Assembly: GCA_015501075.1 (NCBI GenBank)
Contig: JADNYJ010000205.1
Coordinates: 1 to 64,000, forward strand
Reading direction: 5' to 3'
DNA: 64,000 nucleotides
From: Gymnopilus junonius
Lineage: Eukaryota > Basidiomycota > Agaricomycetes > Agaricales > Galerinaceae
Position numbers and translations under genes: made by a program. The notes under the pieces were generated by a model that did no database searches, was not told the origin of the DNA, and worked only from the letters and a program-made list of their open reading frames with translations. This document shows, piece after piece, positions 1,854 to 60,329 of this stretch. Position 1 is the first letter of the stretch; each line of letters opens with the position of its first letter.

Positions 1854-3254
1854 ATGGACCCTCCCCCCACTCTCCCCTCTGAAGTACTCTATCGTATCAC
1901 GAACGCCATCGATGGTACTTGTCCAGAAGGTCGACAATCACTACTCGCCTTCTCATGTGCAAATCGCGCACTCGGTACTATATGCCAAGAACAGATCTTC
2001 CACGACGTCGAAATTTCTTACACAGCACGGTCATCTGAAGATGCTGGCATAATCCTCCTAGATGACGAAGCGACTACTGGCCACAAATTTCTTGACCTTC
2101 TGACCAGCTCGCCGCATATTCGTCCGTATGTTCGAACTCTGGCGATAAACAAGTTGTTGAATTATGGACGACCTGAGTCGATGTCAGATGTGTCTATCAA
2201 GTATGCACAAGAAGGATCGAACACAGAGTCCTTTTCTTTTTACTCTATCGTTCCCCAGCTGCCAAACCTTGAGGGATTGACGACGGTTCATACCAAACAC
2301 TTCCAATCGTGGGCTCACTTGGAAGGATTAACTCGCTTTTATTTCACAAATATAGTCCCATTCCTCACAAAACTCGACCTTCATGTCTTTCCCGACCTGC
2401 CTTTTTCCATGTTTCGTGGGTGTGACAATTTGCAGGAACTCCACGTCTCCTCACTAGATACGGATATGACAGAAAAGTCTCAGTCTGAAACGGGAAAAGT
2501 CAAATTACGCGTTCTTGAGGTCGGATTTCCTGGTCTTGCTATAGGCAAGATTCCCATACATTCATGGTTCAACGCGTCCACTTCGCCGTTTGATCTGTCC
2601 CGACTTCAAAGCTTGACGCTGTCGGATCTATTCACCCCGATATCTGAAATCAGCGACATGCTGGCGCTTTGCGCCCATACACTTGAAGACCTCGATTTTC
2701 ATCTGGAGCTTAATCTTTTCGGTGCGTCTTACGAAGTCGCTGTATCATGCGTTGTGAATTGTATTGAAATTTATTTCATAGGTGTCAGTGACAGATTTCA
2801 GCCCCCCTTTATAGGACAAACCCCAAATCTAGGATTGCTTCGCAATCTACGCCACTTGACTATTCGTACTCGCATGTGGGGAAAAGAGCAGTCCAATCAA
2901 GAGTCCAATTACGACCTTTTATACATCGCCAATGCATTGAAAACCCTACCGTTCACCGTGTTTCGTGCAAGGCAACTCCACTTTACATTGGAGATGAAGG
3001 TGCACTGGTTTACAGATTTCGGAAGCAGCCTTGGGCTGCTTCCTTGGACAGATTTAATCACGGTGTTGGAGGACGATCAAGTAGCGCCTTGCATTGCCGG
3101 CGTGAAACTGAAGTTCCAGCTGCATGGCCATAATGACGCTGGAGAACTTGTAAAAATAGACGTCCCATTTTCCTCTTTGAAGGATATATTGGATAAGAAC
3201 ATGGGTTTGAAGGAACTAAGGGAGAAAGCGATACTTTCATATGGCTGCTTTTAA
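1854..3254 (+). CDS. F-box-like / leucine-rich protein, intact copy
   Basis: This is the best-preserved member of the local family. The N-terminus (LPSEVLYRITNAID, then a conserved SxEGRQSL..CANRAL...CQE..F.DVEISY block) is the F-box-like segment expected to bind Skp1. The remaining ~380 residues are irregular leucine-rich repeats (for example LTKLDLHVFPDLPF, LQELHVSSLD) ending in the family signature LDKNMGLKELREKAILSYG. The frame is open throughout, but 2722-2781 (GT..AG, 60 bases) sits where relatives have their single intron (6334-6402, 42640-42692). Two exons, 1854-2721 and 2782-3254, giving 446 residues, are therefore more likely than the 466-residue read-through. The start is the first ATG before the F-box-like block. 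Likely role is substrate recognition in an SCF ubiquitin ligase; the target is unknown. Confidence 0.7.
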   Translation: MDPPPTLPSEVLYRITNAIDGTCPEGRQSLLAFSCANRALGTICQEQIFHDVEISYTARSSEDAGIILLDDEATTGHKFLDLLTSSPHIRPYVRTLAINKLLNYGRPESMSDVSIKYAQEGSNTESFSFYSIVPQLPNLEGLTTVHTKHFQSWAHLEGLTRFYFTNIVPFLTKLDLHVFPDLPFSMFRGCDNLQELHVSSLDTDMTEKSQSETGKVKLRVLEVGFPGLAIGKIPIHSWFNASTSPFDLSRLQSLTLSDLFTPISEISDMLALCAHTLEDLDFHLELNLFGASYEVAVSCVVNCIEIYFIGVSDRFQPPFIGQTPNLGLLRNLRHLTIRTRMWGKEQSNQESNYDLLYIANALKTLPFTVFRARQLHFTLEMKVHWFTDFGSSLGLLPWTDLITVLEDDQVAPCIAGVKLKFQLHGHNDAGELVKIDVPFSSLKDILDKNMGLKELREKAILSYGCF

Positions 3255-5484: not shown

Positions 5485-6860
5485 ATGGAATCATACGCCC
5501 TCCCGCTCGAGCTCTTGTTTGCCATCATAACCCACATTGACCCGTCTTCACCAGAGGGTCGGCGATGTCTATCTGCCTGCACTTGCACAAATCATGCTCT
5601 TCTGGGTTATTGCCAACGACTGCTTTTCAGAGATGTAGAGCTTTCTTATCTATTTCTTTTAAATGAGGACCGCCGCATCGTTTTTTGCGATGATCAAGGA
5701 ATGACAGGCCAGAAGTTCCTTCACCTGCTTGATGCCTCGCCACATATAGAGTAGGCTCATATATCGAGAACCTCACGATTACAGTCGAAGTACCTACAGG
5801 AAGGCGCAAGCCCTTTGAATTGGCCACGTCGACACACAAATCTTCAAGTTCAGATTCGTTCCCGTTGTACAAAATTGTCCCTCGATTAACAAATCTGAAG
5901 GTATTTATTACAAGTCATACACAGCGGGCTTATTGGAGTGTCCTGGATGACCGCACGAAATCTTTCTTTGTTGGTCTCTTTCCATTGCTCAGAAAGCTCG
6001 ACCTTTTTCTCCTCGTCTTTCTCCCTGTGTCGGTTTTCTCTGGTTGCGCTAGTCTGGAGGAACTCCATGTATGGGGTGCCGAGACAGATCTCAACTACCT
6101 TCCTGCAAATGCAGACAAAGTCAAAATACGGGCTCTGGAAGTTGGCTATGGGCCAGATCCAAGTCGGAAGCCGATAGCACCGCTTTTTAGTCCACCTCAT
6201 TCCCCACTGGATATCTCCCACCTACGAAATCTAAAACTTACAGATGCACTCTTGCCAGTATCTGACGTTGACGATATCCTAAAACTTTGCTCAAATAACC
6301 TGCAAGAGCTTGATCTATTCCTGGCTCTACATGGTGAGTCGTAATCGTCAATGACCTCGAGGCTCGTGCGGACTATATTTTCTAACGCCTTGTAAATTGC
6401 AGCTAAAAATGTACGGCCACTCTCTTTTGAGAAGACGCCCAATCTGGGATTGTTGCACAATCTCTGTTTTCTCATTTTACGATCTACGATTGAATCTCAT
6501 CCACTTTTCACTCTTGAGGAACACAATGACCTGCTATACGTTGCATCTACATTGAAAACCTTGCCATTTGACAACTTCCATTGCAAGCAGCTCCAGCTCA
6601 CCCTGCAGATAGAGTTCATTGATCTCCACAATTTCGAAAACATTGTTACATCACTATCTGGCTGGTCCGATCTCACTGCTCTATTGGAAGAAAATGGAAT
6701 ATATTTTGAAAGCATCAAAATTATGTTTCGGCGCGCAGAATACAATGAAAAACTGGTCTTAATTCCTATACTACTTACAGCGATGGAGGATATCATGGAC
6801 AGGAATGAAGGTTTGAAGAGATTGAGGGAGAAGGGAATGCTGTTGTATGAATACTTTTAG
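5485..6860 (+). pseudogene. F-box-like protein broken by a 5-base insertion
   Basis: The N-terminal F-box-like block (PLELLFAIITHIDPSSPEGRR..) is open from ATG 5485 to a stop at 5752-5754. The rest of the protein continues in another frame from about 5760 to 6333, a GT..AG intron spans 6334-6402, and the last exon runs 6403-6860, ending in the family C-terminus (NEGLKRLREKGMLLYEYF). Alignment with the sister at 15896 shows an extra five bases (gagta) near 5750-5754, inside the segment coding for HIGSYVENL. Without them the frame would be continuous, so this is a recently disabled gene, or an assembly error. The leucine-rich core is full length. Nothing else is obviously wrong. Confidence 0.75.
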
Positions 6861-12654: not shown

Positions 12655-15450
12655 CGATTTTTAAAAGTGGCCATGATGGATACCACATGCAAGCCTAAGA
12701 TTAGAAACCCTACAATTTGGCTTTAAATTTGATGACAGGTTGCAATGACTCGCAAGGGTCTTTTTTTCATTCAAAAAAAAAAATAGAAGCCCTCGGCAAT
12801 CCGATAATGGCCTCCAGCAGTAAACTGAGGAGCATGTAATATTGGTAGGCGATATTGATTCACTTATCGATCCCAATTCCCATGTCATTTCACTCAAGAT
12901 TCAGCATTGATTTGCCGTGCTTCGAAAAAAAAGGCAAGAAGAACGGCTAATGGTAGTCGGGCATGCACCTGAAATAAATTAGAAAACAGGTATTTTGAAA
13001 AATGTATGCTAGTCATTCTGGAAAACAAGGGAGTCAATTTAGGGAACAACAGCACAGGACGGTGGTGAAAGTATTTGACATTTCTGCTACACATTACCTT
13101 CTACCTGCCCCAAGGTTTGTGCATTCATAGTTTTTCAGCCTTTTGCAAGTCATAAGAAAGAGCACCCTGCCGTACTGCAGGGACCCAGGTTGTATTTTCA
13201 CAAAACCCCGGATGCAGTGCCTGAATTGGTTCATTGTTGTACAAAGTAGGCGTCCACCTAATTCTCTCTTATTCTCCCCAACTTTTAATGTTAACCGTCA
13301 TACCCCCATACCCTACTCCTTCAACCATGTCCTGGAATCCTGCATCTGAGGACGATGGCTTCACCAACTTTAACTATAACTACAACTACAACTACAACTA
13401 CGTCTTGAACACTCAGAACAACAGTTTGCAACAGCAGCCTCGGTTCAATGTTCAACAGGGTGAGCCCTTCCTCTTGCATTCTGCACCAATTTCCTGCTCA
13501 CGATCTCATCAGATGCTTTCTATGCCATCCATCAAGAGAGGATAAATACTCCTACTCCAGCGTTTTCCTTTGTTACACCTTTGCAAGCTGCCATCGCGCA
13601 ACCTATGGGACCTCAGTTCATGAACGAGGCACAGGCATATTCTCAACCATCCTTTAACTCTTCCTCATCCATTGGACATGCCATGAACATTGATTCCTCT
13701 GGCTTTTCTCAGCCGTTACGGCCGCCCTTCTACCATATGAGCTTGTCTTTGGATGTTCACCATCTTCTTCCAAATCCAGGAGTTGAGCTTCCTCTGACTG
13801 AAAATGGACTCATGCAAGGTAATTTTGTTCCAATTTCCCAGTCTAATGAATACTCTGAACTGTTTTATTAGGCACCTTTTCTCCAATGGAATATACTGCC
13901 TCTTCCGCCACTTCTGCGCAGTCCTTCCAGTGGCCTTTCTATTCCATGACCTCAGTATACGACATTCACAGTGGCCGTCCATCACCAGCCTCCGACACTA
14001 ACTGGGTTGCCCGAGTAAGAGCCGAACACGATGTCAGTGGATATGGACATGGGCAGGGTATGTTCCCTCTATATTTCTGGGTGCAATAGATAATCTGAAT
14101 GGTTTGATTGTGCAGGTATGGTATCCCCAACGAAATATACTACCTCCCCTATCACCGGTGCATCTTGGTTCAGTACAACTGAACACCCGTCAAATCATCA
14201 GCGCGAAGAGAGCCAACATCCTTTCCAACCTGACCTTGTCTGCTGCATGCGAGGGAATCCATACCCTCAGCCACCATCACCTCCTCATCCCGTCCCACTT
14301 CAGAGTACCCACATTCCACTTCCAACATTCAAAAATCAATGGGAATCACCTCATCAAGTTCAATCAGCCCCGAACTTGTCATCAAGGAACATTCAGCTGA
14401 CAATTGCCTTGAAGTCCTCGGGCCAAGACCCCATCGGCCACCACAGTTTAGGATGGACACTTAACGAAGGGACACGGGAAAGTCATCAGCATAATAATTC
14501 TAATCTCCATCAAGGAGAGATAGAATGCCAAAATTATAAATGTCACTGGTTGCCTGCAACCAGTTGGCAAACCAGCTCAGAGCATGAAGTTGCCGAGCAG
14601 AATCAGTTTCATGCTGGACACCCCAGTGAAAGGTATGTTGAATGGTGTTCTCCCTCTCGAAAGGAGACTGAAACTTGTGACAGCCAGCACGAAGAATACA
14701 AACCTTTTCACTACCCTGCACAGAGAGACTCCGCGACCTGCAGGAGGCAATACGACATCGGCAGCCCTCCCTTTGACATGCAGAGTCAAATCCCCCATCT
14801 CGAACCAGCCACAGCAACATTTCCGTCTTACGACATGGGACCTCTGCCCTCGCCCTTTTCTTCTATGATGGAGCTTTTCTCTGGACTGCCCTCCTCGTCA
14901 AAGCTGATCGCGTTCCAGTTTGAGGAGGATTTTCGCACAAATAAATCAGGAAAGAAGGTGACACTGTTGAAGCACGTTGTACCACAAGTTCTATTCACAG
15001 ACCCAATGACATTGGAAAACTGACCTCAATACGATGATGAGACTGATGAGGATAGCAATAGTGAGGAGGAGGAGGAGGAGGAGGAGGAGAGTGATGAAGA
15101 AGAAGAGAGCGATCCTGAGGGTGCAGAGAGAAGATCCTGATCCATTCCATTGTATTCCATAACATGCATAACATGTGACTTCATAGGAGATACGTAGGAC
15201 TGAATTTTTTGGTTACTTACAGCAAAATGGATAGAGATATGTTGTAACATTAACAGCAATATATTTTGTTATTCTTCTTGTCAATACTCCTTGTTTACCC
15301 CATTTTCACTGTAGCTCTCCTCATGAATTCTTTCTCTTTCGCAGATTCCCACAAGCTGCCTATTTTTAAAATCGCAAGCACTTTTCAATCTGGAAGGGCG
15401 ATTACTACAGACAAGACCATATGTTTGCTTTTCTCTGCGACTCCTCTGGT
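12655..15450. repeat. tandem segmental duplication, left unit
   Basis: Matches 17230-20078 in direct orientation along nearly all its length, including about 650 bp upstream of the gene, all exons and introns, and about 300 bp of 3' flank. Similarity stops after CTGCGACTCCTCTG. Small indels shorten the right unit's 5' flank or lengthen the left's. The paralogous gene starts are 4680 bp apart. Confidence 0.85.
13327..15023 (+). CDS. Tyr-Asn-run / HMG-box-like protein, copy A, truncated before its acidic tail
   Basis: Exons 13327-13459, 13513-13818, 13872-14057 and 14116-15023 join in frame through GT..AG introns conserved in copy B (18007). A further 51-base in-frame GTATGT..CAG segment at 14633-14683 is probably a fourth intron. 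The N-terminus has a Tyr-Asn repeat from codon 17. A Ser/Pro/Gln-rich middle follows, then a region ending SQHEEYKPFHYPAQR and a basic patch, loosely like helix 3 of an HMG box. The frame stops at TGA 15021-15023, where copy B has CGA (Arg). This removes the Asp/Glu-rich end that is still readable to about 15140. Predicted length is 510 residues, or 493 if the 51 bases are spliced. It could be a nuclear regulator, possibly an HMG protein; this is inference. Confidence 0.55.
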
Positions 15451-18006: not shown

Positions 18007-20078
18007 ATGTCCTGGAATCCTACATCTGAGGACGACGGCTTCGCCAACTATAACTATAACTACAACTACAACTACGTCTTAAACACTCTGAACAACAGCT
18101 CCCGACAGCAATATGGTGATCCACAGGGTGGGCCCTTTCCCTTGCATTCTGCACCGATTTCCCACTCACGATCTCATCAGATGCTTTCTACGCCGTCCAT
18201 CAAGAGAGGACAAACACCCCTGCTCCAGCGTTTTCCTTTGCTATGCCTTCGCAAGCAGCCATCGCGCAACCTACGGGCCCTTGGTTCATGAATGAGGCGC
18301 AGGCACAATCTCAACCGTCCTTTAACTCTCCTTCGTACATGGGACACGTCATGAACATTGATTCCTATGGCTTTTCGCAGCCGTCACTGCCGTCCTTCCA
18401 ACACATGAGCTTGTCTTCGGATGTTCACTATCTTCTTCCAAATCCAGGAGTCGAGCTTCCTCAGACTGGAAACGGACTCGCACAAGGTAATCTTTTTCCG
18501 CATTTCTCTGATTAATGAATACTCTAAACTGTTTTGCTAGACGCCTTTTCTTCAATGGAATACGCTGCCTCTTCCACCAGCTCTGCGCAGTCCTTCCAGC
18601 GACCTTTCTATTCCCCGACCTCAGTATACGACATTCACAGTGGCCGTCCTTCACCAGCCTCTGACACTAACTGGATTGTTCAAAGAGCAAGAGCCGAGCG
18701 CAATGACAGTGGATATGGACATGTACAGGGTAAGGCCGCGCTATATTTCCGGGTGCAATAGATAATCTGAATAGTTTGATTGCGCAGGTACGTATCCTTC
18801 GGCAGAACATACCACCTCCCCTATCGGCGATGCATCTTGGTTCGGTACGACTGAATATTCCACAAATCATCAACGCGAAGAGAGCCAGCGTCCTTTCCAA
18901 CCTGATCTATTCCGCCGCACACCAGGGAATCCGTACCCTCAGCCATCATCATCTCCTTGTCCCATCCCAGTTCAGAGTACCCACACTCCACCTCCGATAT
19001 TCGAAAAGCGGTGGGGATCGCCTCATCATGTTCAGTCAGCCCCGCCCTTGCCATCAATGTACATTCAGCCAACGGTGGTTTTGGAATCTTCGCACCAATA
19101 CCCCACTCAACATCATGGTCCTAATCTCCATCAAGGAGAGTTAGAACCCCAAAAAATTATATGTCACCGGTTGCCTGCAACCGGTTGGCGAACCAGCTCA
19201 GAGCACGAAGTTACCGAGCGGAATCAGTTTCACGCTGGACACCCCGGTGAAAGGTATGTGAAATGGTGTTCTCCCTCTCGAAAGGAGACTGAAACTTGTG
19301 ACAGCCAGCACGAAGAATACGAACCTTTTCACTACCCTGCACAGAGAGACTCCGCGACCCGCAGGAGGCAATACGACATCGGCGGCCCTCCCTTTGACAT
19401 GCAGAGTCAAATCCCCCATCTCGAACCAGCCACGGCAACATTTCCGTCTTACGACATGGGACCTCTGCCCTCGCCCTTTTCTTCTACGACGGAGCTTTTC
19501 TCTGGACCGCCCTCCTCGTCAAAGCTGATCGCGTTCCAGTTTGAGGAGGATTTCCGCACAAATAAGTCAGCAAAGAAGGCGACACTGTTGAAGCACGTTG
19601 TGCCACAAGTTCTATTCACAGACCCAATGACATTGGAAAACCGACCTCAATTCGATGATGAGACTGATGAAGATAGCGATAGTGAGGAGGAGGAGGAGGA
19701 GGAGGAGGAGGAGAGTGATGAAGAAGAAGAGAGCGATCCTGATGGTGCGGAGAGAAGATCCTGATCCGTTCCGTTGTATTCCATAACATGCATAACATGT
19801 GACTTCATAGGAGATACGTAGGAGTCCTGAATTTTTTCATTACTTACAGCAAAATGGATAGAGATATGTTGTAACGTTAACAGCAATATATTTCGTTATT
19901 CTTCTGGTCAATACTCCTTGTTTACTACGTTTTCACTGTAGCTCTCCTCGTGAATTCTTTCTCTTTCGCAGATTCCCACTAGCTGGCTATTTTAAAATCC
20001 CCAGTACTTTTCAATCTGGAAGGCGAACACGTTTCTACAGACAAGACCATATGTTTGCTTTTCTCTGCGACTCCTCTG
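17230..20078. repeat. tandem segmental duplication, right unit
   Basis: Direct copy of 12655-15450, carrying copy B of the Tyr-Asn-run gene with the same exon-intron layout. The dead F-box gene at 15896-17093 separates the two units. Confidence 0.85.
18007..19764 (+). CDS. Tyr-Asn-run / HMG-box-like protein, copy B (intact)
   Basis: Exons 18007-18127, 18181-18486, 18541-18729 and 18788-19764 give a continuous 530-residue frame. A 51-base GTATGT..CAG segment at 19254-19304 is in frame and conserved as an intron-like segment (53 bases) in the third copy at 49478, so 513 residues are likely. Features in order: a Tyr-Asn run near residues 16-26; a long Ser/Pro/Gln/His-rich disordered region; ERNQFHAG..., then SQHEEYEPFHYPAQR and a basic RRRQ, comparable to the end of a divergent HMG box; SKLIAFQFEEDF; a ten-Glu run within a 40-residue acidic tail; then ERRS. 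This domain order suggests a DNA-associated regulator with an acidic tail. No firm family match can be claimed. Confidence 0.65.
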
Positions 20079-20445
20079 ACTTCAGTGAATATCGTGTGGT
20101 AAAACGGACAAGCCCACCAACTCCCTTCTACTCCTCCTTCAATACTCGACAAATTGAAATTCATTACAGCGAATTTGTATTCCCCCTCCTCCGATGATTT
20201 TCCCTTTTACTCTGGGTAACATGGTGTCCGACCTTTTCCGACTTGTTTCCAAATCCATCGAACAATGGCTTCAAAGAATCCATGAACAGTTATATTTTAC
20301 CAGATACTCGTCTTGTCCAGTAAAGTTCACCGGCAAAAATTTGAGTGGCACCGTCAGTCTTCAAATTCAAGTTCAACGCGTTCATTCCTTTCTTACCCCC
20401 AACTTCCAACTATTGGTTCATTTCTCAAAGCAGTCAAGCGCAAGT
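19765..20445. other. duplicated 3' flank, then F-box upstream region
   Basis: The duplicated flank runs to about 20078. An open frame from 20194 leads in frame into the next gene's start at 20446, but the extra 84 residues have no counterpart in relatives. The stretch is more likely 5' UTR or promoter. Confidence 0.45.
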
Positions 20446-21817
20446 ATGCAAACTCCAGCTCAGAGATTCTTCTCCATCCCCGAACTACTGAGCCTCGCCG
20501 TCGATAACGTTCGAGTAAAGGATCTCAATGCTTGTTCGGGTGTGAACCTCGAATTACGCATTATATGTCAAGAGCGTATTTTCAATCACATCAAGCTTTC
20601 CTACCGGACCACAACCCTTCCGAACCTTGGTTTGGAGTGTCTCTGCGATAATGACGGCGGGATGGAGTTCCTCAAACTGCTTGAAGTGTCGCCACAGTTG
20701 GCATCTTACGTTCGCCGTATAGATATCGATATCCATCATGTCGAAGAAACGGACAGTATCATTGATTCAATCATGCCTAATTTCTCTTTCTATGAGATTT
20801 TTCCAAAGTTGGGTAGATTGCGTACGATCCTTGTGGACTGTTTTATGGATTGGCCAAAGTTCGAACCGCAAGCGCGGTTATTCCTTGCCCACATTTCTTC
20901 CAGAGTCCCAGAAGTAAACTTTTCGGCACTTCGGGCGGTCCCCCTCTCAGCATTTGTTAACACCGACATTCCGAAGTTGAAACAACTCTGCATTTCGAAT
21001 GTGTATGAGGAGGAATCGGACAATACGGGAACCTCACTTTCGCAAGTTACCAATGCTAAAGTGATTAAGCTGGACTCACTCGATGTTGGATTCGGTATCC
21101 ATGGCTTTATGCTTGTGTTTGATCCTGCCTTGTGCATGTTCACCTCACCCAGATCACCATTCGACTTCAGTGAGCTTCGGGCTCTAGACCTCTGCTGCTC
21201 AAACTATACCATCGCTGGCATTCAAGAAATAATAGAAATATGTAGCACTAAACTTGAAAGGCTTCGCTTCCATGTGGATCAGCCCCTCGGTGCGCAAGCT
21301 CAGTACTTTATTTACATCCATCGCTCACTGGTTCTACTTACATCCAGCTGACCAAGATGTTAGCCCTCTTTCACCTCCTGACCTCGGCTCACTTCACAAT
21401 CTGCACCATCTCGCAATCTACACTGCTGTCCACCATGAAGCAGCTGACGACGACGATTACGGGAACAGGGATGACTTCCCTTTGATTGCATCGATGATGC
21501 AGACCTTACCCTCATCGCTTCACGGCTCGCGAGATCTCCAAGTTGACTTCGAGGTCAATATTCTTGAGGATGATGAGTCTGACTATGTCTTTGACACTAT
21601 CCCATGGTCCGACCTCCTCCATGTGATCAGAGAAGACAAGATCCTTTCATGCCTGAAAGAAGTCAATCTCATCGTCCAAGTGAGCTTTGGTGATCTCATA
21701 GATGACGACGAGTCCGAACTACTAGAATTGTTGGATGACAACGAAGACGTGAAATTCTTGAAGGAAAAAGATATACTTACCTGTACTGGAAAACAGCGTA
21801 ACCCCATTTTCATCTAG
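20446..21817 (+). CDS. F-box-like / leucine-rich protein, divergent intact copy
   Basis: Two exons, 20446-21289 and 21348-21817, with a 58-base GT..AG intron at the position shared by the family, give a continuous 437-residue protein. The N-terminus (FFSIPELLSLAVDNVRVKDLNACSGVN..) is the F-box-like block in diverged form, lacking the SPEGRQSL motif. CQERIFNHIKLSYR matches the family's linker. The body is leucine-rich (LRALDLCC, LERLRFHV). The C-terminus is unusually acidic (LIDDDESELLELLDDNED) and ends in FLKEKDILTC. The ATG at 20446 aligns with the starts of relatives; an in-frame ATG at 20194 would add 84 residues. It is the most diverged of the + strand copies and undamaged, so probably an older paralogue under selection. 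Confidence 0.7.
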
Positions 21818-25320: not shown

Positions 25321-26692
25321 ATGAATCCTCGCAGTCCCGTTCTTCCCTATGAAATCCTATATGCTATCATCGGCGCGTCGACAACGCATCTTCAGAAGGC
25401 CGACAGACTTTATCAAATTGCTCTTACGCTAACCGTGCGCTTTGCGCTGTATCTCAGGAACGGCTCTTCCAAAGGGTCGAAATTCCATACGATGTGACAG
25501 GTCTTAGGAACAAGCTCATCTTCATCGACGACAAGGCACTAGCAGGCCAGAAATTACTTCGCCTGATTTCCGATTCACGACACATCGCGCCCTATATTCA
25601 ATATCTCACCATCAGTATCCCCGAGAGTCCCGGCAAAATAGTAAATTGTCGTCGGAATTGTCTTCGGGAAATACTGCCTTCTCACTCTACACCATCTGTC
25701 TCAAATTGTTCAATATGAAAGGATTTTTTATATCCTCCGATGCAAGCTACCTTTGGTTTGACGTAGAAGAACGCACGCAAGCTTTCTTTCTTTCTGTCAT
25801 TCCATTGGTCACCCAACTAGACTTGTCGTGCTTTACGCAATTCCCTGTCTCTTACTTTTCCGGGTGCCACCATTTACAGGAACTTAAAATGTCCTTTTTG
25901 AATCTGGACACGAAGAAAGTCACACAATATGTTGCCGATAGAGTTAAATTACGGTCCCTTCACATTGACAGATGCCCTCTAGTAAGAACGGGTACAGTTG
26001 CCTCATGGTTCAAGGCACCCCAGTCGCCTCTTGATATCTCGGAACTTCGCAGTTTGCAGTTGACGAATCCTTACTACCCAGTGGTTGTTGTCGACGAGAT
26101 ATTGGCCCTTAGCTCAAAAGCACTTGAAAATCTTACATTGTCCGTAGATTTATATGGTCTGTATTCTCAGGTTCTTCATCAGCATGTTATGTGCTTACTT
26201 GGGTATGGCCCCTCTTATGTAGGTCCCCATCCCCAACGCCTTCCAGAGAAAACCCCTGACTTGGGCTCGCTTCACAACCTCTGTCACCTAACCATCCATA
26301 CTCGCATCCGGAGTCTTCCTTATTGGCAACCAGACGTCAAAGAGAAGAACGACCTTTCATACATCGCAACTATGTTGAAGACCTTGCCATTTAATACATT
26401 CCGCCCGCGACAACTACAACTCGATATTCTGATGCCGGTTAATCTTTCGGATTTCGATACTAACCTTCCGCTACTTCCGTGGTCTGACTTGATCGGTCTC
26501 TTGGAAGACGCTCAGATGGCGCCTTGCTTTTCGAGCGTACACCTTAGAATCAAACGCTTGCGGTATGAAAAAGATTTGCAGCCCAAAGATGTCGACATGA
26601 CACCCGTAGCTTTGGCATTCGTCTTGGACAAGAATGACGGTCTGAAAAGATTGAGGGAGAAAGGTCTATTGTTTTCATACAACAGCTACTAG
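25321..26692 (+). pseudogene. F-box-like protein with two frame breaks
   Basis: ATG 25321 begins NPRSPVLPYEILYAII, the F-box-like start. The frame slips near 25373, where the SSEGRQTLSNCSYANRAL block continues in another frame, and again near 25640, after SIPESPG. From about 25646 to 26692 the leucine-rich body is open and well preserved (LVTQLDLSCFTQFPVSYF, LQELKMSFLNLD) to the family ending LDKNDGLKRLREKGLLFS. A 66-base GT..AG span at 26157-26222 corresponds to the family intron and is in frame. Only two small indels separate it from a working gene, so death was recent or the assembly has errors. Confidence 0.65.
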
Positions 26693-27164
26693 GCGTTATT
26701 GATATTATGACTGGCGGCCACAGGGAGCTAAGAGTTCATATTTCGTTATCGTTCATTTAAACTCTAAGCAACAGAGGCGGAATCGGAATAGCGATGAATG
26801 AGGTACTTTACGTAGCTTATTCTTATCAGTCGAATGCACTACAGTTTAGGATTCGGCTGAACTGTTATTAGTTCGGCCGCAAAGAGTAACGCGTTTCGCG
26901 GTGTCGGAAAGCCGAGGGAAATTGAGCGCATCAGCCGAATAAATGATCAAATATGTAAAGATCGGACCACGAGCACTTTCATGAGAAGCCCCCATCAACA
27001 CGGCACTGTAAGGCAGTGCGCTTAGTTCCGAACTGTCAACTGGTCCTGCTTATATATAAGCATGGTAGTGGTGCGGAGTGGAGTGAAGTCGATCCGTCAA
27101 TCTGACCTTTTTTTTTGGAAGCTGGTCTTCTTGCCCTCCGACGCTGGACGTCGTTGCCTAAATA
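26693..27164. other. promoter region of the secreted repeat protein
   Basis: The start of the stretch is the 3' flank of the preceding copy. A TATATATAA-like box lies at about 27051-27059, roughly 105 bp before the ATG at 27165. Short TTCGGCTGA / TCAGCCGAA inverted copies at about 26855 and 26931 suggest an old small insertion. Confidence 0.4.
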
Positions 27165-28321
27165 ATGTCTCGAGCTGGCCTCCTGTCTCTCTTTTTCTTT
27201 GCTTTTGTCGGTCTGAATCTGGTGGCATGTGCTCCTGTGCCGGAACGCTTATCAAAGTGAGTAGAGCGGTTTATCGGTCAGATCCGTGTGATAAGTCGTT
27301 GACTGGAGGCCATCCTTCAACAGTCTGGTCAAACGTTATGACGACTCCACCAGTAATCTCGTTACTCGGGCGTTGGATGTATTTGAGGATCCTGTTTATT
27401 TCAAGGTGAGTTGTTGAGTTGCCTCTGGTGGAGTCGGAGTAAAATTGAACGTAACCAACCCAAAGCGTGACTATTTTATGGAACTTGAAGGCCGAGATCT
27501 TGCCCTAGAGTTTGATCAGTACTTTGGGGTGCGTTGGATTCATCTCGATTCTCCTCTCGGGTAGTCGATGCTTACCAAATGACTGTAGCGCGATTACGAC
27601 TTTGATTTCTTTGACGAACGTGATTTCGACGATCTTGAACCCGAGTTCGTCAAGGTCGTTCTTTCGCATTTTTTCAGCTAGGCCATTTAACTGATATAAC
27701 ATATTAAACCCAGCGGGAAACTATAGTCCTCGAAAGGCGTAACATCTTTTCAAAGATAAAGCATGCCTTCCAACACGCCTTCCACAAAATCAAGGAAGGT
27801 TTCCAGAAAGCAGGCCACGCCATCAAGAAAGGATTCCAGAAAGTCGGCCACGCATTCAAGAAAGCCGGCCAAGTGATGAAAAAGGGCTTCCAAAAAGTCG
27901 GCCACGCCATCGCGCACGTCGCAAAGAAGATCGCACACGGCGTCGTCACCGCCGCGAAGAAAGTGGGACATTTCATCAAGACGACCGGGGCCAAGATCGC
28001 GAAATTCGGTCTCAAGATCGTGGCAGCCGCTGCTTCCGTTGTTAGCAAAGTCGTCAAGTTTATTCCGGGTATCGGTACTGCCGCTGGCATGGCTCTGAAG
28101 GGAATCGCGATTGGAGCCAATAAAGCATCCGATAAGATTCACGCCAACCTTGGCAAGCTCGGCAAGGTCGACAAAGCTCTCAACAACGTTATTAACCCTC
28201 TTGGTATGTGTCTTCATTGTATTATGGAGGGTTAGAGGTTTACTCATTAATACGGTTGGATATAGGTTCTGCGGTAAAGCACATGGGAAAAGGTGGCAAG
28301 GTTCTGAGCGCCCTCTTTTGA
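27165..28321 (+). CDS. secreted, dibasic-processed cationic repeat protein (novel)
   Basis: Six exons (27165-27256, 27324-27405, 27466-27528, 27589-27654, 27714-28203, 28266-28321) join in frame to 282 residues. A signal peptide covers residues 1-23 (hydrophobic LLSLFFFAFVGLNLV, ending ACA before PVP). Residues 24-110 form an acidic pro-region with KR at 34-35, K58-R59, K101-R102 and RR at 109-110, fitting Kex2-type Golgi cleavage. Residues 111-282 are Lys/His-rich, Cys-free and amphipathic: 11-residue repeats of the IKKGFQKVGHA type, then an Ala/Val/Gly-rich stretch (IVAAAASVVSKVV, KFIPGIGTAAGMALKG). Architecture (signal, acidic neutralising pro-part, cationic helical mature part) is that of membrane-active defence peptides, so an antimicrobial or membrane-binding role is plausible. 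I recognise no named family. Codon use is GC-richer than flanking relics, and the gene is undamaged. Confidence 0.8.
27789..27908 (+). repeat. 33-bp in-gene repeats coding 11-residue amphipathic units
   Basis: Units at 27789-27821, 27822-27854 and 27876-27908 share ATCAAGAAAGG.TTCCAGAAAG..GGCCACGC; a shortened 21-bp unit sits at 27855-27875. Each codes for a Lys-Gly-Phe-Gln-Lys-x-Gly-His-Ala pattern. Differences between units are partly synonymous, so the protein pattern seems kept by selection after DNA-level expansion. Confidence 0.85.
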
Positions 28322-40421: not shown

Positions 40422-41800
40422 TCAATTACCACTACATGTTAAAATTCCTCTCTGTCTCAAACCCTTCAGCCCTTCATTACGATCCAGGATATCGCACAAG
40501 GCTGGTGTCGGTATATCATGGAGCCTTTTCAATCCATTTCGACCATGAGTTTCGAAGCGATGAATTTTGATGTTGACGTGGTTGAGATAGCATGATATTT
40601 GAGGATTATTTAGGGTTTCAATGAAGTCGGTCCAAGGGAGTAAAGGGAAAGTGATATTAAATTTTGAGACATCAATAACGGCAAAAATTATGTCGACCCG
40701 TAATATAGCGCGACGATGATGATCTTTGGTTGGCAAGGAATTCAACATGGATGCGATGTGAGAAATATCATTATTGCTGCGGGGTGAATGCGATGACGGT
40801 TGTTCATACACATATCCATGAATGGCAGATTTGATTGTTAGATGGCGCAGCATTTGAAGAGAAGAGAGTTTGGGGAACTCGGGCGGTAATGGGATATTGT
40901 AGTGACCTATAGATCGAGGATATATTCAAACAGGTTTCTATGAACACACTAAATGTAAGGACGAACCAAATATATCCACTTCAAGGGTCAAGCTTTCGAG
41001 AGTGTTTGAGCAAAGTGCCAACAATTCGTTGATTTCGAAGTCCATAAAGTACGGGTTTGATAGTCGCAAAGTACGAAGTTGGGAAATACTGAACGGCGAC
41101 CAAGGCGAGGCGAAGCAGGAATTGATGTCTACTGGAGAGCCGGAACCGTATCCAACATCCAGGAAATCGAGTACAACCTTGCTAGTTGGTGTTTGCTTGG
41201 TGTCGTCTGGATCCCATACTAAACTTGGCACACGCAGTGAGCGTAAATTATTGCGTCCAAAGAAAGAGGAAATAGGAAATAGTTCGAATAGCTGCAAGTC
41301 GAGTTCTTGAATATGTGAGATCACGTCGATGAAAAATTGCTGCGTGCGTCTTTCAAATGTAGACCAGCGATGAACGACCAAGGAGGATCGGACGGCAAAT
41401 TTCTTCAGTTTCTTAGCATTGATGTGATTGCGTACAGAGAAAATGCTTCTATATCGGAACACGTTCCAGGTACCGCAGCTGGGTCTTTCCGTGAGACTAC
41501 ATCGACTTGGAGCTCTTGGACATATGCTCCAATTTCTGGCGAGGCAGCGATAAGGTCACGGAACTTGGCACCAGTAGTGCCAACCGCATCAACAAGGACA
41601 ATATTCACGTCGGAGTCATAGAGAGATTCATAGGAAACCTTGACAGCTCGGAAGATTCGTTTCCTGGACATGCTCTGAAGCGCATGGTTTACGCAAGCAC
41701 AGGCAAGTAATGCTTTTTGGCCTTCCGGGGAGCCGTCAGCAGTATAATCAAGGATAAGGTCAAGGAGTTCATTTGCTAGCACGGCTGATGTCAATGCCAT
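40422..41800 (-). pseudogene. F-box-like protein with one frame break
   Basis: Reading leftward from ATG 41800: LANELLDLILDYTADGSPEGQKALLACACVNHAL is the F-box-like block. The frame is open to about 41405 (EAFSLYAITS), then slips by one base and continues as LKKLKKFAVRSSLVVHRW. The LRR body follows (IQELDLQLFELFPISSFFG) to a 60-base intron at 40907-40966. The second exon runs 40906-40422 and ends DRNEGLKGLRQRGILTCSGN. Apart from that slip it looks complete. Either it died very recently or the assembly lost or gained a base. It is closest to the copies at 29145 and 62522. Confidence 0.65.
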
Positions 41801-42178
41801 TCCGTTTCTTGAAGTACCCTCGAGTCCAGTCCCTTGCTACATACAGTATTTATAAGTGGTAATTCATGAGGTAGTACATTGGTCTACCCAGCACTTACTC
41901 GGCGAACAATCAAAATACACACTGCAGAGATGGGCAATGGAAGGTGATGAGCAGACGTAAGGAAGAAGTGACACGTTTCACAGGCGTGGTTCAGGAGATA
42001 ACCGAGGGAGACGAATAACCGTTCGTCAGCGGTGATAGTGACAGGACATAGCCTCTGGTGTCAAGGGAGTATATTAGCATAAAAATTGACCTTCAACTTC
42101 CAAGGATCCAAGGCTAATGACTATGGTAAGCAAAAAAAATTTATAGGTACAGCAAATAGCATTTGAAGTAACAATTCT
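41801..42178. other. spacer between two minus-strand F-box copies
   Basis: Promoter side of the 41800 copy and 3' flank of the 42179 copy. No gene or repeat recognised. Confidence 0.4.
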
Positions 42179-43527
42179 TTAATAACCAGTATACGATAAA
42201 AGCCCCTTCTCTCTCAATTTCTTCAAGCCCTCATTCTTGTCCAGAATAGATAACAAGGCTGTGGATGTCATATTGACGTGTACAGACCGTAGATCATATT
42301 CAAACCTCCTGATCTTCAAATCGACCTTCAGAAAAAAAGATGAAAATCGCTCGTCATCGAGGACGCTGATGAGATCGGACCACGGGAGTAAAGCAAGGTT
42401 TGTATCAAAGTCAGGAAGAAGGACAATCCACATCACAATGTCAATTCGCAACTGTTGGGGGCGGAGTGAATTGAATGGTAGGGATTTCAGCACAGCTGCA
42501 ATGTATGAAAGGTCGTTTTTTTCCCTGATGGTCGGCTGTTGGTAGGGATAGCCACGAATGCAGGTACGAGCCGTGAGATGGGATAAATTACGAAGCGAAC
42601 CTAAATTGGGAGTTTTATCATCCAATGGTAAACGATTAGCTTGGAAATTTATTTTAGCATGGGCATGTTGCATCGAATGGTCGGAAGCTTACCAAACAAG
42701 TCAACCTGGAAATCGAGTTCTTCGAGTGCATTTGAACAAAGTACCAGGATGTCGTCAATGTGAGATACTGGACAGTACGGGTCCGATACCGTCAGGCGTC
42801 GAAGTTGAGAGACATCAAGCGGCGAATAGGGCATTTGAAACCATGGAGCCATAGGGTGGTTTCCCAGAGCAGGAAATCCAACCTCAAGGATTTTCAGCAT
42901 GACCTTTCCCGATGCAGATTGGGGAGTTCCTGACATATCTACATCCAATGTCGAGGCATGAAGTTCCTTCAGGTCGGAACAACCTGAAAACGCGGTAACA
43001 GGATAACAGGCAAAGAAACGGAGGTCAACCTTCGTTAGACGTGGGATGATACTAATGAAAAGTTCTTTGTGCGTCCTTCAAAGCTATGCCATGGGTAGAG
43101 ATCGGCAGGGGATGTAATGAACCCTTTCAGGTTGTGTAATTGAGGCATGATGGCGTAGAGAGAAAAAAACGGGGTATTTGATGACTCCGTTGAGTACTTT
43201 GCTGACTTGGGTCTACCACGATGCGGCAAAGTCCTCATCGTGAGGTTTCGAACATATGGGCCGATGTGTGGCGAACCGGCGAGAAGATTGAGAAACTTGT
43301 GACCAGTTGTTCTCTCATCATCGTGCAGGATCACGCCAATGTCTTCGGCGTCGAAAGCGACATAAGATATTTCTACATATTCGAAGATCCGTTGTTGACA
43401 TATGACGCTCAGAGCGCGGTTGGCATAAGAGCAATTCACCAGGGAATGTTGGCCATCCGAAGAAGAGATATCAATGGCGTTGATGACAGCATACTGCAGT
43501 TCACGGGGGAACATGAGAGAATCCATA
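42179..43527 (-). pseudogene. F-box-like protein with one frame break
   Basis: Leftward from an ATG at about 43527: DSLMFPRELQYAVINAIDISSSDGQHSLVNCSYANRAL, then CQQRIFEYVEISY. The frame is open through PQLHNLKGFITSPADLYPW and slips by one base near 43060, at HSFEGRTK. It continues in another frame as IIPRLTKVDLRFFACYPVTAFSGC to the intron at 42640-42692 (GTAAGC..AAG, 53 bases). The second exon, 42639-42179, ends DKNEGLKKLREKGLLSYTGY. The body is most similar to the copy at 25321. As with the 41800 copy, a single-base lesion is the only clear damage. Confidence 0.65.
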
Positions 43528-43815
43528 AGTCTGAAGAAAACATTTTTCACAGTTAAGGCGCGAGAGAGCGGCTTTAGGCTCACATACCAATTATACAGAG
43601 AACATAAGTCTATAGCTCTGGTCGATCTGGAGGAGTTCTTTGTAAGATAGGAACCATGATGAGTCATGCATGCAACGATATTAATAAGCGACAATAGATA
43701 AGGCCGGTCCGTCCATGACGGAAGGTGTAGAGACTGGGGCAAAGCCGACAGGTTGTGGAACGGGAATGAAAATACTTATTGAGGTCAAGTACATGTTTAA
43801 ACTGACCTCAGATAA

Positions 43816-55417: not shown

Positions 55418-58400
55418 GGTTGGTATGGTGGAAGTGAGTGAAGGTGTTGGTATTCTTCAAGCTTTTCCGGTGCATTGGCGAGATTTGATCCGGGTTCCCA
55501 CGAGGCTTCGGTTATCAGATAACTGGCCCACTTGACATAGTATTGATATCATCCGTTTCTGTACTTTCGATGGTTAAGAATCATTTCAATTTCATATTCG
55601 GATTCTCCATCAATCGTTTCAGGGGGTGGTTGTGTGAAGTTCCGGCCATGAACCTGTGTTTCCATGTACGGCATCAACAATGTTGCATGGAAGATGTCGT
55701 GAATTTTCCATGTCTTTGGCAGTTGTAGCTGATACGTGAGAGGTCCTAGGACACGTTTGATTTTGAATGGTCCTTCTCTTCTCGGTGCCAGTTTCTTATT
55801 GTACCGTGTCTTCAGGTTCCTGGAGTCTAGCCATACCTTTTGTCCTTCTTTGAATGGTACGAAGTTGGATTTTTGTCAATCGGCCATTCTTGCTCTAGCC
55901 AGTTCGTGCATGGTGAGAGCTTCTTTTCTGTCCGAGATGAGGTTCTTTAGTTTCTCCTCTACAGAGGGAAACTTCGTGTTTTCAAATGTGGTGGGAATCA
56001 CAACAGGATTAGTACCAAACATGAGTTCAAATGGGGTTCTCTGCCTGTCAGCATGTCTTCGATCATTATGGATGAATTCCAGGGTGCCAACGTGTTGTTT
56101 CCAGGTGGTCGGGTTCGAGGAGCAATAGATAGCAAGGTATGCTTCTATTTCCTGATTGAATCGTTCCGTGGTACCATCTGACTGAGGATGATATGCCGTT
56201 GACAGTTTTGACTTGATTCCAAGAAGTTTGAGCAGTTCTTGGAAGGTTCTAGCAGCAAATTGGGGTCCTCTATCAGAAATAATACTGTCCGGTAGGCCAA
56301 ATCGCTTGAATAGGTTGTCCTGTAGGAGTAATGCCGCTCCTTCTTGTGAAAGAGTTTTTGAGCAAGGCATGATGATTACCCCCTTTGTAAGTCCGTGATC
56401 GACCACGATCAATAAGGAGTCATATCCGTCAATGTTAGGGAGGTCCATGATCATATCCATGGAGCATTGTGCGAATGGTCTCATGGATTTAGCTCCTTCA
56501 ATTGGGTGTAAGGAGGGATTTGCTGGGTTTCAGTTGATCTTGAATTGCTGGCATTGTCCACACCCTTTGACGTAATTTTTGAAGAACGTTCACATTCTGG
56601 GCCACCAGTACAGTTGTCGTACAGTGTTGTACATTTCCAGTTCTCCGGGGTGTCCTGCGGTGACCGAGTCATGGTACATCGCGACGATTTTCCTGCGTAG
56701 TTCCTGGTCATTGGGAATATAGTTCTTCTTCTTGTAGAAGATGAGTTCGCCGATGCCTTCCATCTGCATTGTTTCCCAGTCGTCTAAGTCTTTTGCAAGA
56801 CTTCGAGATCCTTCTTGAGTGAGAAGTTTTAATGCATCCACTACGTCTTTATCCTGTTTCCTGGATTGGGCGATTTCCATTTGGAGATCGGCGTCAATCA
56901 AATTTATAAATAGACTCTCCGGAAGGAGAATCTTGTCTTCATTGTCATGATCCTCATCAGGGATCATGTCCGGTCTTCGCGAGAGGGCGTCTGATTGTAC
57001 CATTTTGCTTCCAGGGAGATGGACTAATTGGATGTCATATTCTGAAAGGAATAGTGACCATCTTGCTTGGTGTCTGTTCAGTTTTTGAGTACTTCTGAAG
57101 TACGTCAAATTCTTGTGATCTGAATAGATGATCGTTGTAAATGTCGATCCTTGAATGTAGTGTTGCCATTCTTTGAGGGATCAGATCATTGCCAATAGTT
57201 CTCTGTCGTAAATCTCATAGTTTCTCTCGGTGGGGGAGAATGTCTTCGAGATAAATGCCACCGGGTGTCGATCTCCATTACTGTCAAGTTGTGTCAAAAC
57301 TGCTCCAGATGCGTATTTTGATGTGTCGCATTCAATCTGGAATTGTTTCGCAGTGTCCGGCATGGTCAAGACGGGTTCTTCTGTGAATTTCCATTTCAGC
57401 AGTTCGAATGATTTCTTGGCATCTTCATTCCATTCAAAGCTGCGGTCTTTTTTCAACAGCTCGTTAAGCGCGCGAGCTATTTCCGAGTATTTTCGAATAA
57501 ATCTTCTGTAAAAGTTTCCAAATCCTAGGAAGGATCGGACCTGTTTTATGTTCTTCGGTTCTGGCCAGTCAGCTATACTGCTGAGTTTCGAAGGGTCCAT
57601 CGAGATTGTTCCTTCTTGGATAATCATTCCAAGATAATTGGTTTTTGTCTGGGCGAACGTGCATTTTTCCAGTTTCAAATACAAGTCGTTGTCCTGGAGT
57701 ATTTGAAGTACTTCCTTTGTTATCTGTTCCAGCTTCTTCTTATCTTTGTGGAAGATAAGAATGTCATCCATATAGATGATAACGAATCCTTGATGGATGA
57801 CATCCTTAAACATCGAGTCCATCATCGACTGGAAGGTCGCCGGGGAATTACACATGCCGAAGAACATGACCGTCGGTTCGAATAGTCCCTTGTTCGTCTT
57901 GAACGCTGCTTTCCATTGGTCGCCATCTTTGATCCTAATGTTGTTGTAACCCCATCAGACATCAAGTTTAGTGAAATACTTGGCTCCTTTTTTGTCCATG
58001 AGTTCGGGGATCAGAGGGAGGGGATAGGCATTCTTGACAGTCCATTCATTCAGGTACCGGTAGTCTTGGCAGGGTCGAAGCTTCCCATCCTTTTTAGATA
58101 CAAAAAAGAAGGGGGAAGCCATAGGCGATTTAGACAGTCGAATATATCCTTTCTTCAGGTTTTCTTCCAGGAATTTGTCCAATTCGGTATCCTCAGAGGG
58201 TGTCAGAGGATACGTCTTGAAGACTTTAGGTTGAAAACCTTCCTTGAGCTCGATCTTATGGTCCCAAGATCGAGATTCAGGGAATCGGTTGGCAGTGTCC
58301 TTATCGAAGATGTCCAGGTATTCGTGGTATTCCAGTGGGATCATTTCTTTGAGCGGCTTTTCTTCCTTCTTCACATCGTGTTTCTGAGCGAAGATTTGCG

Positions 58401-59211
58401 AGGAAGTTAGTTTCGCATTGATCCAAATTTCATTGTCGTCCTCAGGGATGTTCCAAATCTCTTTCGTTTCCGGAAGGGGTTCGTTGCCTAAAAAGGAAAT
58501 GATTAAATCCGAAGAGTCATCCAATTGATTGACTTGTTGGATTTCCTCATCGGGTACTTCTTCTATTTGGGAAGTAGTACTAATCTCCCTGTTGAGTTTG
58601 ACGTGTCTGTTTTTCCAGTTGATGTCCAGGTTGTTTTCTTCGAACCAGGGAAAACCAAGAATGATCTTCTGTTTTCCTAGGCCAGTGACCAGTAGATGTT
58701 CTGTTCGGGGTTGTCCATCTATGTCGAGCTTTAGGTCAACATAGTGCTTGATGGTTCCCTTTTTGTTCGGGGTTCCATCTACGTTGAAGACTCGAATTTC
58801 CTTTTCCAGTGTCTTTGTTACCAGGTTGTGTTTCTTCGTGAAGTTCTGATCGATGAACTTCCCTTTTGCTCCAGTGTCTCCTAGAGCAGTTCCAATGATT
58901 TTCGTTCTGTTCTCAGTCTCAAATGAAAAGGGCAATTGGAGCGATTTATTTTCAATTCGAGCTGAGACTACAGAATAAATATCTAGAGAAGGAGTTGCAT
59001 ACGTTGGTCTCATGCATCTCCTTATTGAAAACCCTCTTGGTCTCCCATCTCGTACACTTCTTCGTGTTCTTCTTCGGTCAGGTCCTGCATGAGGGACCTG
59101 ATGTGCGCATGGAGTGCTCTTCCCTTGAGGGGGTTCTTCTTCGGCGGAGGGTTCCTCCTGTTCTTGCCCTTCTCGGGGCAGTCTCTTGAGACATGCCCGG
59201 GCTTCTTGCAT
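55414..59211 (-). pseudogene. pol polyprotein (PR-RT-RH-IN-chromodomain), six nonsense codons
   Basis: Leftward order: protease with ALGDTGA near 58878; RT from YLDIFDKDTANRFPESRSWD through SPMASPFFFVSKKDGKLRPC (about 58120) to the catalytic YMDD at about 57774; RNase H with FQIECDTSKYASGAVLTQ; integrase zinc finger (YHDSVTAGHPG ... VKGCGQCQQ) near 56690-56545; integrase core with MDLP, SDRGPQF and AYHPQSDGTTERFNQEIEAY; then a chromodomain (YYVKWASYLITEASWEPG) ending at the TGA 55416-55414. Premature TGAs lie at 57955-57957, 57181-57183, 56590-56592, 56530-56532, 55876-55878 and 55549-55551. Each replaces an Arg expected in related elements, consistent with CGA to TGA. Outside these the frame is otherwise the same, so damage is almost purely by point mutation. 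Confidence 0.93.
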
Positions 59212-60300: not shown

Positions 60301-60329
60301 TTGCTAGGCAGAAGCATTGAATGAGGTAG

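Follow-up and report, generated by a model that had tools for sequence, protein, structure and literature searches.

The gene at positions 27165..28321 of the analysed window, a stretch of 64,000 nucleotides from the basidiomycete Gymnopilus junonius (contig JADNYJ010000205.1), is not an orphan; it is a member of a multigene family that numbers some twelve to twenty copies in the genome of this fungus. Judged by its sequence, its product is of a type new to the libraries searched, and the style of its maturation is a known one. We suggest, at about an even chance, that the family comprises membrane-active secreted proteins that are matured by a Kex2-type convertase and work as one long chain, not as diced repeat peptides.

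Gene model and layout of the precursor

The six exons of the window gene (Table 1) are spliced into an 849-nt frame of 282 residues with a single terminal stop, and the six-exon structure proposed by an earlier, sequence-only reading of this DNA is thus intact. The five introns are all of the GT...AG type, measure 59-67 nt, and lie in phases 2, 0, 0, 0 and 1; intron 2 ends in AAG, and intron 4 starts with GTCGTT. Their positions recur among the paralogs (as seen in sequence models, not transcripts), and a first intron in phase 2 and a last intron in phase 1 are found in all 11 intact genes of the family. A TATAWAW motif within 220 nt of the ATG is present in none of the ten other intact paralogs.

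Table 1. Features of the gene and its leader in the window
Feature	Position	Strand	Basis
TATA-like box TATATATAAG, 114 nt upstream of the ATG	27051..27060	+	
SL1 hairpin, GAAG-CTGGT-CTTC, CNGGN loop	27118..27130	+	placement in the 5'UTR inferred
SL2 hairpin, GACG-CTGGA-CGTC, CNGGN loop	27140..27152	+	placement in the 5'UTR inferred
Exon 1: signal-like start and APVPERLS (first residues of the pro-part)	27165..27256	+	spliced translation
Exon 2: acidic pro-part, KR at residues 34-35, last residue Lys	27324..27405	+	spliced translation
Exon 3: acidic pro-part, first residue Arg, giving KR at the exon 2/3 junction	27466..27528	+	spliced translation
Exon 4: acidic pro-part, Arg first and Lys last; exon 3/4 junction G|R, exon 4/5 junction KR	27589..27654	+	
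Exon 5: end of the pro-part, RR, repeats, most of the cationic mature chain	27714..28203	+	
Codons of Arg109-Arg110, putative Kex2 site ahead of the mature chain	27735..27740	+	[KR]R in 11/11 intact paralogs
11-residue amphipathic repeats, residues 111-187	27741..27971	+	period and moment tests, DNA repeat
Conserved hydrophobic core with IPG break, from residue 188 to the end of exon 5	27972..28203	+	
Exon 6: conserved tail GSAVKHMGKGGKVLSALF and stop	28266..28321	+	spliced translation, paralogs

The protein starts with the strongly hydrophobic segment MSRAGLLSLFFFAFVGLNLVACAPVPERLS (best 12-residue KD mean 2.60), and a hydrophobic start of this kind is shared by all 11 intact family proteins (best 12-residue KD 2.5-3.0). 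Its hydrophobicity agrees with the signal peptide of the sequence-only reading, and its residue pattern, judged by eye, is signal-like as well; cleavage of this predicted signal peptide would fall near residues 22-24, again by eye. The following segment is acidic (residues 32-110 contain 23 Asp+Glu and 12 Lys+Arg), and among the 11 intact genes the pro-part, when counted from residue 25, holds 13-24 acidic residues at a net charge of -11 to +1. That this part neutralises the cationic one, as had been proposed, holds at most partially, because a net charge of -11 faces one of +29 in the window protein, and because the net charge of the pro-part is 0 and +1 in the paralogs C46 and C140.

A dibasic pair, [KR]R, directly precedes the conserved mature start (S/N)(I/V)(F/W/A)-x-K-(I/L) in each of the 11 intact paralogs. 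Lys|Arg is found at 23 of the 28 phase-0 exon junctions of these genes, and Arg follows the junction in 27; the dibasic pairs of the pro-part are hence mostly created by splicing, a count that depends on the template given to the aligner, since a stricter splice penalty moved or lost some of the paralog introns. P-domain stretches (the P-domain part only) were detected in the genome and fit a Kex2-type convertase. Together with the dibasic pair ahead of every mature start, they are in keeping with the Kex2 processing that the first reading described for secreted precursors of fungi.

Charge, repeats and predicted fold of the mature chain

The putative mature chain of the window protein (residues 111-282, 172 residues) contains 32 Lys+Arg, 3 Asp+Glu and 11 His and is free of Cys; these residue counts agree with the acidic segment, the dibasic site after residue 110 and the 172-residue cationic part described before. 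The mature chains of the 11 intact genes vary in length between 126 and 239 residues and in net charge between +15 and +36, all of them lack Cys, and the number of repeats differs from paralog to paralog. The 11-residue amphipathic repeats of the earlier description are statistically firm: within residues 111-187, the identity at lag 11 is 0.44 (0.12 in shuffles), the helical moment at 98.18 degrees is 0.538 (0.104 in shuffles), and not one of 2000 shuffled sequences reached either value. Period and moment likewise exceed all 2000 shuffles in each of the five repeat regions tested, and the moment is larger at 98.18 than at 100 degrees, the two angles compared, in four of them. The DNA repeats too, with a 33-nt unit in 2.3 copies. 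The hydrophobic middle noted earlier is real, with IVAAAASVVSKVVKFIPGI as its best 19-residue window.

AlphaFold2, run on exon 5 as a single sequence, predicts two helices, at residues 2-116 and 120-160, which are interrupted at the IPG turn. The best model has a mean pLDDT of 78.8 and a pTM of 0.33, and the other four range from 68 to 50.0; because of this low pTM, the single-sequence input and the wide spread over the five models, the predicted fold is weak evidence. The amphipathic cationic nature of the mature part, as claimed by the sequence-only reading, is supported by the moment test, and the helix itself is the prediction of this weak model, which agrees with it.

Repeats with an 11-residue period could also belong to a surface or lipid-coating protein that folds on lipid or at an air-water interface, for instance on spores or hyphae. 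We consider such a function improbable, yet it stands as a rival because 11-residue repeats mark the helices of perilipins, apolipoproteins and synucleins, and repeats of such a kind form 3-11 helices on lipid, according to the part of PMC5889406 that was accessible. The period found in all five repeat regions and the preference of four of them for 98.18 degrees speak for it; perilipin 4, synuclein and the apolipoproteins, as portrayed in that part of the source, share with the family the 11-residue period, the long amphipathic helix and a variable number of repeats. By the same partial account (PMC5889406), they differ from it in that the fungal proteins are secreted-type precursors, are strongly cationic and possess an additional conserved hydrophobic core. 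Moreover, the bulky, Phe-bearing face of the strongly cationic family proteins contrasts with the weakly hydrophobic face ascribed to perilipin 4 in the abstract of PMC8064757, and no Pfam match above cut-off connects the family to coating proteins.

The distribution of dibasic pairs bears on whether the mature part persists as one chain. KR or RR occurs within the mature chain of three of the 11 intact genes, at one site each, and KK pairs number between 0 and 6 per chain. We have weighed, and find doubtful, the view that the protein is a KEX2-processed repeat protein (KEP), whose cationic part would be diced at KK and whose pro-part would be cut at KR to yield short signalling or defence peptides. 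In the excerpt of PMC9769878 that was available, the rule for KEPs requires a signal peptide and at least one fragment between dibasic sites that is similar to two others, and the KEPs of Agaricomycetes share a signal-like start, dibasic sites, repeats and the fungal host with the family studied here. We re-created the screen approximately, with a local BLOSUM62 alignment and a coverage rule in place of BLAST+ and with the first 20 residues removed. The window protein passes when KK and RK are admitted as sites, fragments resembling GFQKVGHAF recur in it, and the paralogs C23_101k and C812 pass as well. Across the 11 intact paralogs, however, these three are the only ones to pass with KR, RR, KK and RK, and none does so with KR/RR alone. 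In C140 and C556, T, S, H or Q often stands in place of the second Lys at the repeat borders, which hence do not look as if they were maintained for cleavage, and the mature part of C23_95k is devoid of any dibasic pair. In contrast to the KEPs as outlined in that excerpt (PMC9769878), the family repeats lack conserved flanking Kex2 sites; dicing fits the window protein, but not the family.

Copies, breakage and selection

At least 28 stretches that match the exon 5 protein are present in the genome assembly (58.0 Mb, 898 contigs), and 19 gene copies on 11 contigs could be modelled; 11 of these are intact and eight carry stops or frame defects as assembled. The term "undamaged" chosen by the sequence-only reading is right for the window copy. 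The models were built with a custom splice-aware aligner, and splice sites were set by hand in C140 and C556, as was the start in C812; in C668_122k, the usual acceptor ahead of exon 5 is altered and the model takes a later one. A second query, made with the divergent exon of C897, found no site beyond the 11 contigs already known. The genome itself looks fungal in its short introns and in its GH7, CBM1 and Vts1-type sequences. Some of the eight defects could be haplotype or sequencing effects, because four of the broken copies are nearly identical to intact ones: C826 and C668_122k are 97.9% identical over 3.2 kb, C10 and C140 96.3% over 2.1 kb, C511 and C46 99.1% over 3.3 kb, and C23_7k and C668_192k 96.0% over 4.2 kb. 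Among the 11 intact genes, C23_95k and C668_192k are near-identical.

Selection was assessed by Nei-Gojobori dN/dS ratios in nine paralog pairs. For core and tail, the ratio is about 0.05-0.18 in eight of the nine pairs, and these parts of the protein look constrained in those eight. The exception is the core of C23_95k and C668_192k (dN 0.07, dS 0.06), which gives no sign of purifying selection. These two genes have the same 130-nt leader and pro-parts without an aligned amino-acid difference, and their changes are concentrated in the core; rapid change or an exchange could explain this. For the pro-part, the ratio is about 0.09-0.28 in the seven other pairs that gave finite values. That for the repeats is about 0.06-0.26 in six other pairs and 0.55 between C46 and C897, and it is saturated and not computable between C140 and C812.

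Searches against known families

Searches for known relatives agree with the description of the protein as undescribed. None of the 11 exon-5 proteins scored above cut-off in Pfam (the lowest E value, 0.00052, came with 19.7 bits where 31 are required), and NCBIfam, against which two of the 11 were scanned, was equally silent (best E for the window protein 0.00041, 20.5 bits against 35). In the PDB, the best match had an E value of 0.023 with a single protein and of 0.0026 with a profile, the latter for an HR1 helix, one of the helix matches obtained. A literature search, limited to the terms used, returned no description of such a family, and neither exon 5 nor alignment revealed viral relatives.

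The weak Pfam matches, all below cut-off, were treated as effects of helix and composition, and the PDB matches to spike HR1, tape measure proteins and designed helices were taken as generic helix matches; HutP was set aside as a weak PDB match, and sll1863 and ZorA (NCBIfam) scored below cut-off. The bacterial Pfam family Collagen_mid recurs, unexplained, in four of the 11 exon-5 proteins with E values of up to 0.1, far below the cut-off; its best values are 0.012 with exon 5 and 0.0081 with the whole window protein, and the other weak Pfam families each appear in one or two members. The idea that the acidic exons are duplicates of each other was likewise dropped: among nine exon pairs from three proteins only exons 3 and 4 stand out, weakly, with a likeness that 14 and 23 of 500 shuffles reached in two proteins.

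Proposed maturation and mode of action

From the intact frame, the family, the dibasic site, the repeats and the constraint, all of them observed, we infer secretion, Kex2 cutting, membrane action and a target. In the proposed sequence of events, signal peptidase would act first, followed by a Kex2-type convertase at [KR]R (after Arg110 in the window protein). The product would be a single long, cationic and amphipathic chain, in which a first helix with the start (S/N)-(I/V)-x-x-K-(I/L) is followed by a variable number of 11-residue turns, a hydrophobic, hairpin-like core and a Gly/Lys tail. The acidic pro-part, which would be cut as well, may keep this chain quiet during transport. Outside the cell, the repeat helix would adsorb to anionic membranes and the core would insert into them, with damage to bacteria or other competitors as the result. 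Membrane activity of the mature chain is probable in our view, and its use is probably directed against other microbes. Amphipathic cationic helices serve also in lipid coating and in polyanion binding.

Several known systems resemble parts of this scheme. Cecropin- and moricin-type peptides are, like the family, free of Cys and rich in Lys, contain Gly, and have an apolar face built from Phe, Ile, Val and Ala; going by their familiar lengths, the family chain is several times longer, is built from repeats, and has no Pfam match above cut-off. Most of the well-characterised antimicrobial proteins of fungi are rich in Cys, and a multigene family of long, Cys-free, repeat-built cationic chains released by a Kex2-type cut would widen their list; its natural variants in repeat number would also allow the effect of helix length on membrane action to be studied. 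The Ece1 precursor of Candida albicans, as summarised in the accessible portion of PMC5784256, is cut by Kex2 at seven KR sites and releases candidalysin, a membrane-active peptide of 31 residues; it serves as the working model for the scheme. It has in common with the family a signal-bearing precursor (by prediction in the family), several KR sites and an amphipathic chain; a comparison by description, not by sequence, sets these 31 residues against a family chain of 126-239 residues with 11-residue repeats (PMC5784256, same portion).

Resemblance of the mature start to a bacterial protein

A scan of prokaryotic genomes with exon 5 gave 71 pattern matches, among which four loci were confirmed, and all four represent one Paraburkholderia/Burkholderia gene. 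The start of the encoded Burkholderiaceae protein, SIFSKIKHAFQHIGHDIEKAAKSVAHGVEHVA, aligns without a gap to the mature start of C668_122k with 21 of 32 residues identical; the window protein aligns to it over 52 residues, with gaps, and 23 identities. Beyond these first 32-52 residues there is no strong alignment to the bacterial protein. Of 200 genomes sampled from this bacterial family, 14 contain a match (a weak one in one case, and with the query's own genome included). Best-stretch identity among the other bacterial genomes is 32-67% overall, and the 12 starts that were read comprise ten of the form MSIFSKI(K/G)H, one MSIFSHIKH and a different one. The similarity is in part a product of selection by the search, which started from an exact word of eight residues in the query.

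Unlike the putatively signal-bearing fungal precursors, the bacterial protein has no signal peptide by eye; it is 349 residues long in L052, and the frames in 12 other genomes with strong matches span 365-657. Loci of this protein (start MSIFSKIKHAFQH) are L052:4998-6047 (plus strand), L053-L055 and L058-L069. At L052, the one locus examined for its neighbours, genes for an HTH_18 regulator and for a secretin whose N0 domain is of type III lie within about 4 kb. The first mature helix of the fungal family, which reads (S/N)IF(S/T)KIKHAFQH in the clearest members, might correspond to a membrane-targeting helix of the Burkholderiaceae that was transferred or copied by selection, a tentative idea to which we attach little probability; over so few residues, transfer, mimicry and convergence would look alike. 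If the idea is true, one working part is common to an arsenal secreted by a fungus and a protein whose gene lies near that of a bacterial type III secretin.

The same neighbourhood could be cited for an effector-like or polyanion-binding protein that targets plants, nucleic acids or cell walls instead of membranes. The likeness between the mature start and a product encoded close to a type III secretin would suit such a protein, as would a small, secreted-type multigene family with broken copies. Polyanion binding, on the other hand, does not need amphipathicity or a conserved hydrophobic core, and the genome carries GH7 and CBM1 sequences, which are typical of plant-litter decay. We regard such a role as still less probable than lipid coating or the dicing of the chain, and we retain membrane activity as the preferred function.

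Hairpins in the leader and Vts1-type proteins

Hairpins of the forms GAAG-CYGGY-CTTC and GACG-CTGGN-CGTC (SL1 and SL2 in Table 1) stand upstream of the ATG in the family. When hairpins are counted with a 5-nt loop and at least 4 pairs, the 130-nt leaders of the 11 intact genes contain 18 CNGGN hairpins in sense and one in antisense orientation; shuffled leaders hold a mean of 0.26 and a maximum of 3 in 500 rounds. SL1 and SL2 each occur in nine of the 11 intact leaders, seven have both, and every leader has at least one, counts that show retention and not repeated origin, because paralogs are not independent. The exact tandem pattern GAAGCYGGYCTTC-N10-40-CGCTGG is found 11 times in the genome, always at the family (0 for the reversed control). 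Ten of these occurrences precede modelled copies, of which three are broken and the others are seven of the 11 intact genes. The last one lies where contig C826 ends and matches the C668_124k leader. SL1 alone, considered as the mark of a genome-wide regulon, was rejected: with 12 of its 21 matches at the family and nine elsewhere, against 11 in the reversed control, it is at background.

The leader hairpins are short. As a whole, the window leader folds no better than its shuffles (z 0.78), 155 of 200 of which did at least as well, and SL1 does not form in the leader's lowest-energy fold. The stems pair in 97.9% of 96 cells (26-72% in slid controls), a value that describes a chosen set, since six of 18 leaders were left out of the alignment: C812 and C897, in which one hairpin is absent, and the near-copies C668_192k, C10, C511 and C23_5k. 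In the remaining 12 leaders, covariation amounts to a single pair in which both partners differ, seen in one sequence, and 209 of 500 shuffles reached this score.

The genome encodes two SAM domains of the Vts1 type (on C190 and C90), which match the solved yeast Vts1 with E values of 3.1e-17 and 1.6e-16 and in which the LRLHKY and LGARR stretches are preserved; judged by spacing, Arg replaces the last contact Lys in the domain on C90. A further SAM domain, on C445, which we take by eye not to be of the Vts1 type, was discarded as a Vts1 candidate in favour of these two. The portion of PMC9893680 at hand places RNA contacts at the LRLHKY and LGARR stretches, and defines Smaug recognition elements by CNGGN or CNGG loops, which it describes in 3' UTRs. 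The family hairpins share the CNGGN loop with these elements but precede the ATG, a difference from the elements as described in that portion (PMC9893680). They are possible candidates for Smaug/Vts1 elements, and a Vts1/Smaug-type protein that reads them might add a further layer to the scheme by holding the mRNA down until the product is needed. If this is true, the family copies are under Vts1/Smaug control through tandem leader hairpins found nowhere else in the genome, and such hairpins would open the post-transcriptional control of a family of secreted weapons to direct testing in a fungus. At L086 (C556:161900-163500, minus strand), reading by eye shows a worn copy of the leader with a kinase-like frame behind it; a further family gene considered at C556:163389 was dismissed, as this worn copy stands beside the kinase-like frame.

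Neighbouring frames in the window

Several other frames of the window were characterised by eye. Related leucine-rich, F-box-like frames, some of them fragmented, occupy positions 1854-3254, 5733-6344, 20158-21817, 25508-26692, 40938-43775 and 62669-63385. Frames on the minus strand at 55876-60303 resemble fragments of an LTR retrotransposon (integrase, reverse transcriptase and zinc knuckle). Two similar Pro/Ser-rich frames are located at 14094-15023 and 18775-19764, about 4.7 kb apart.
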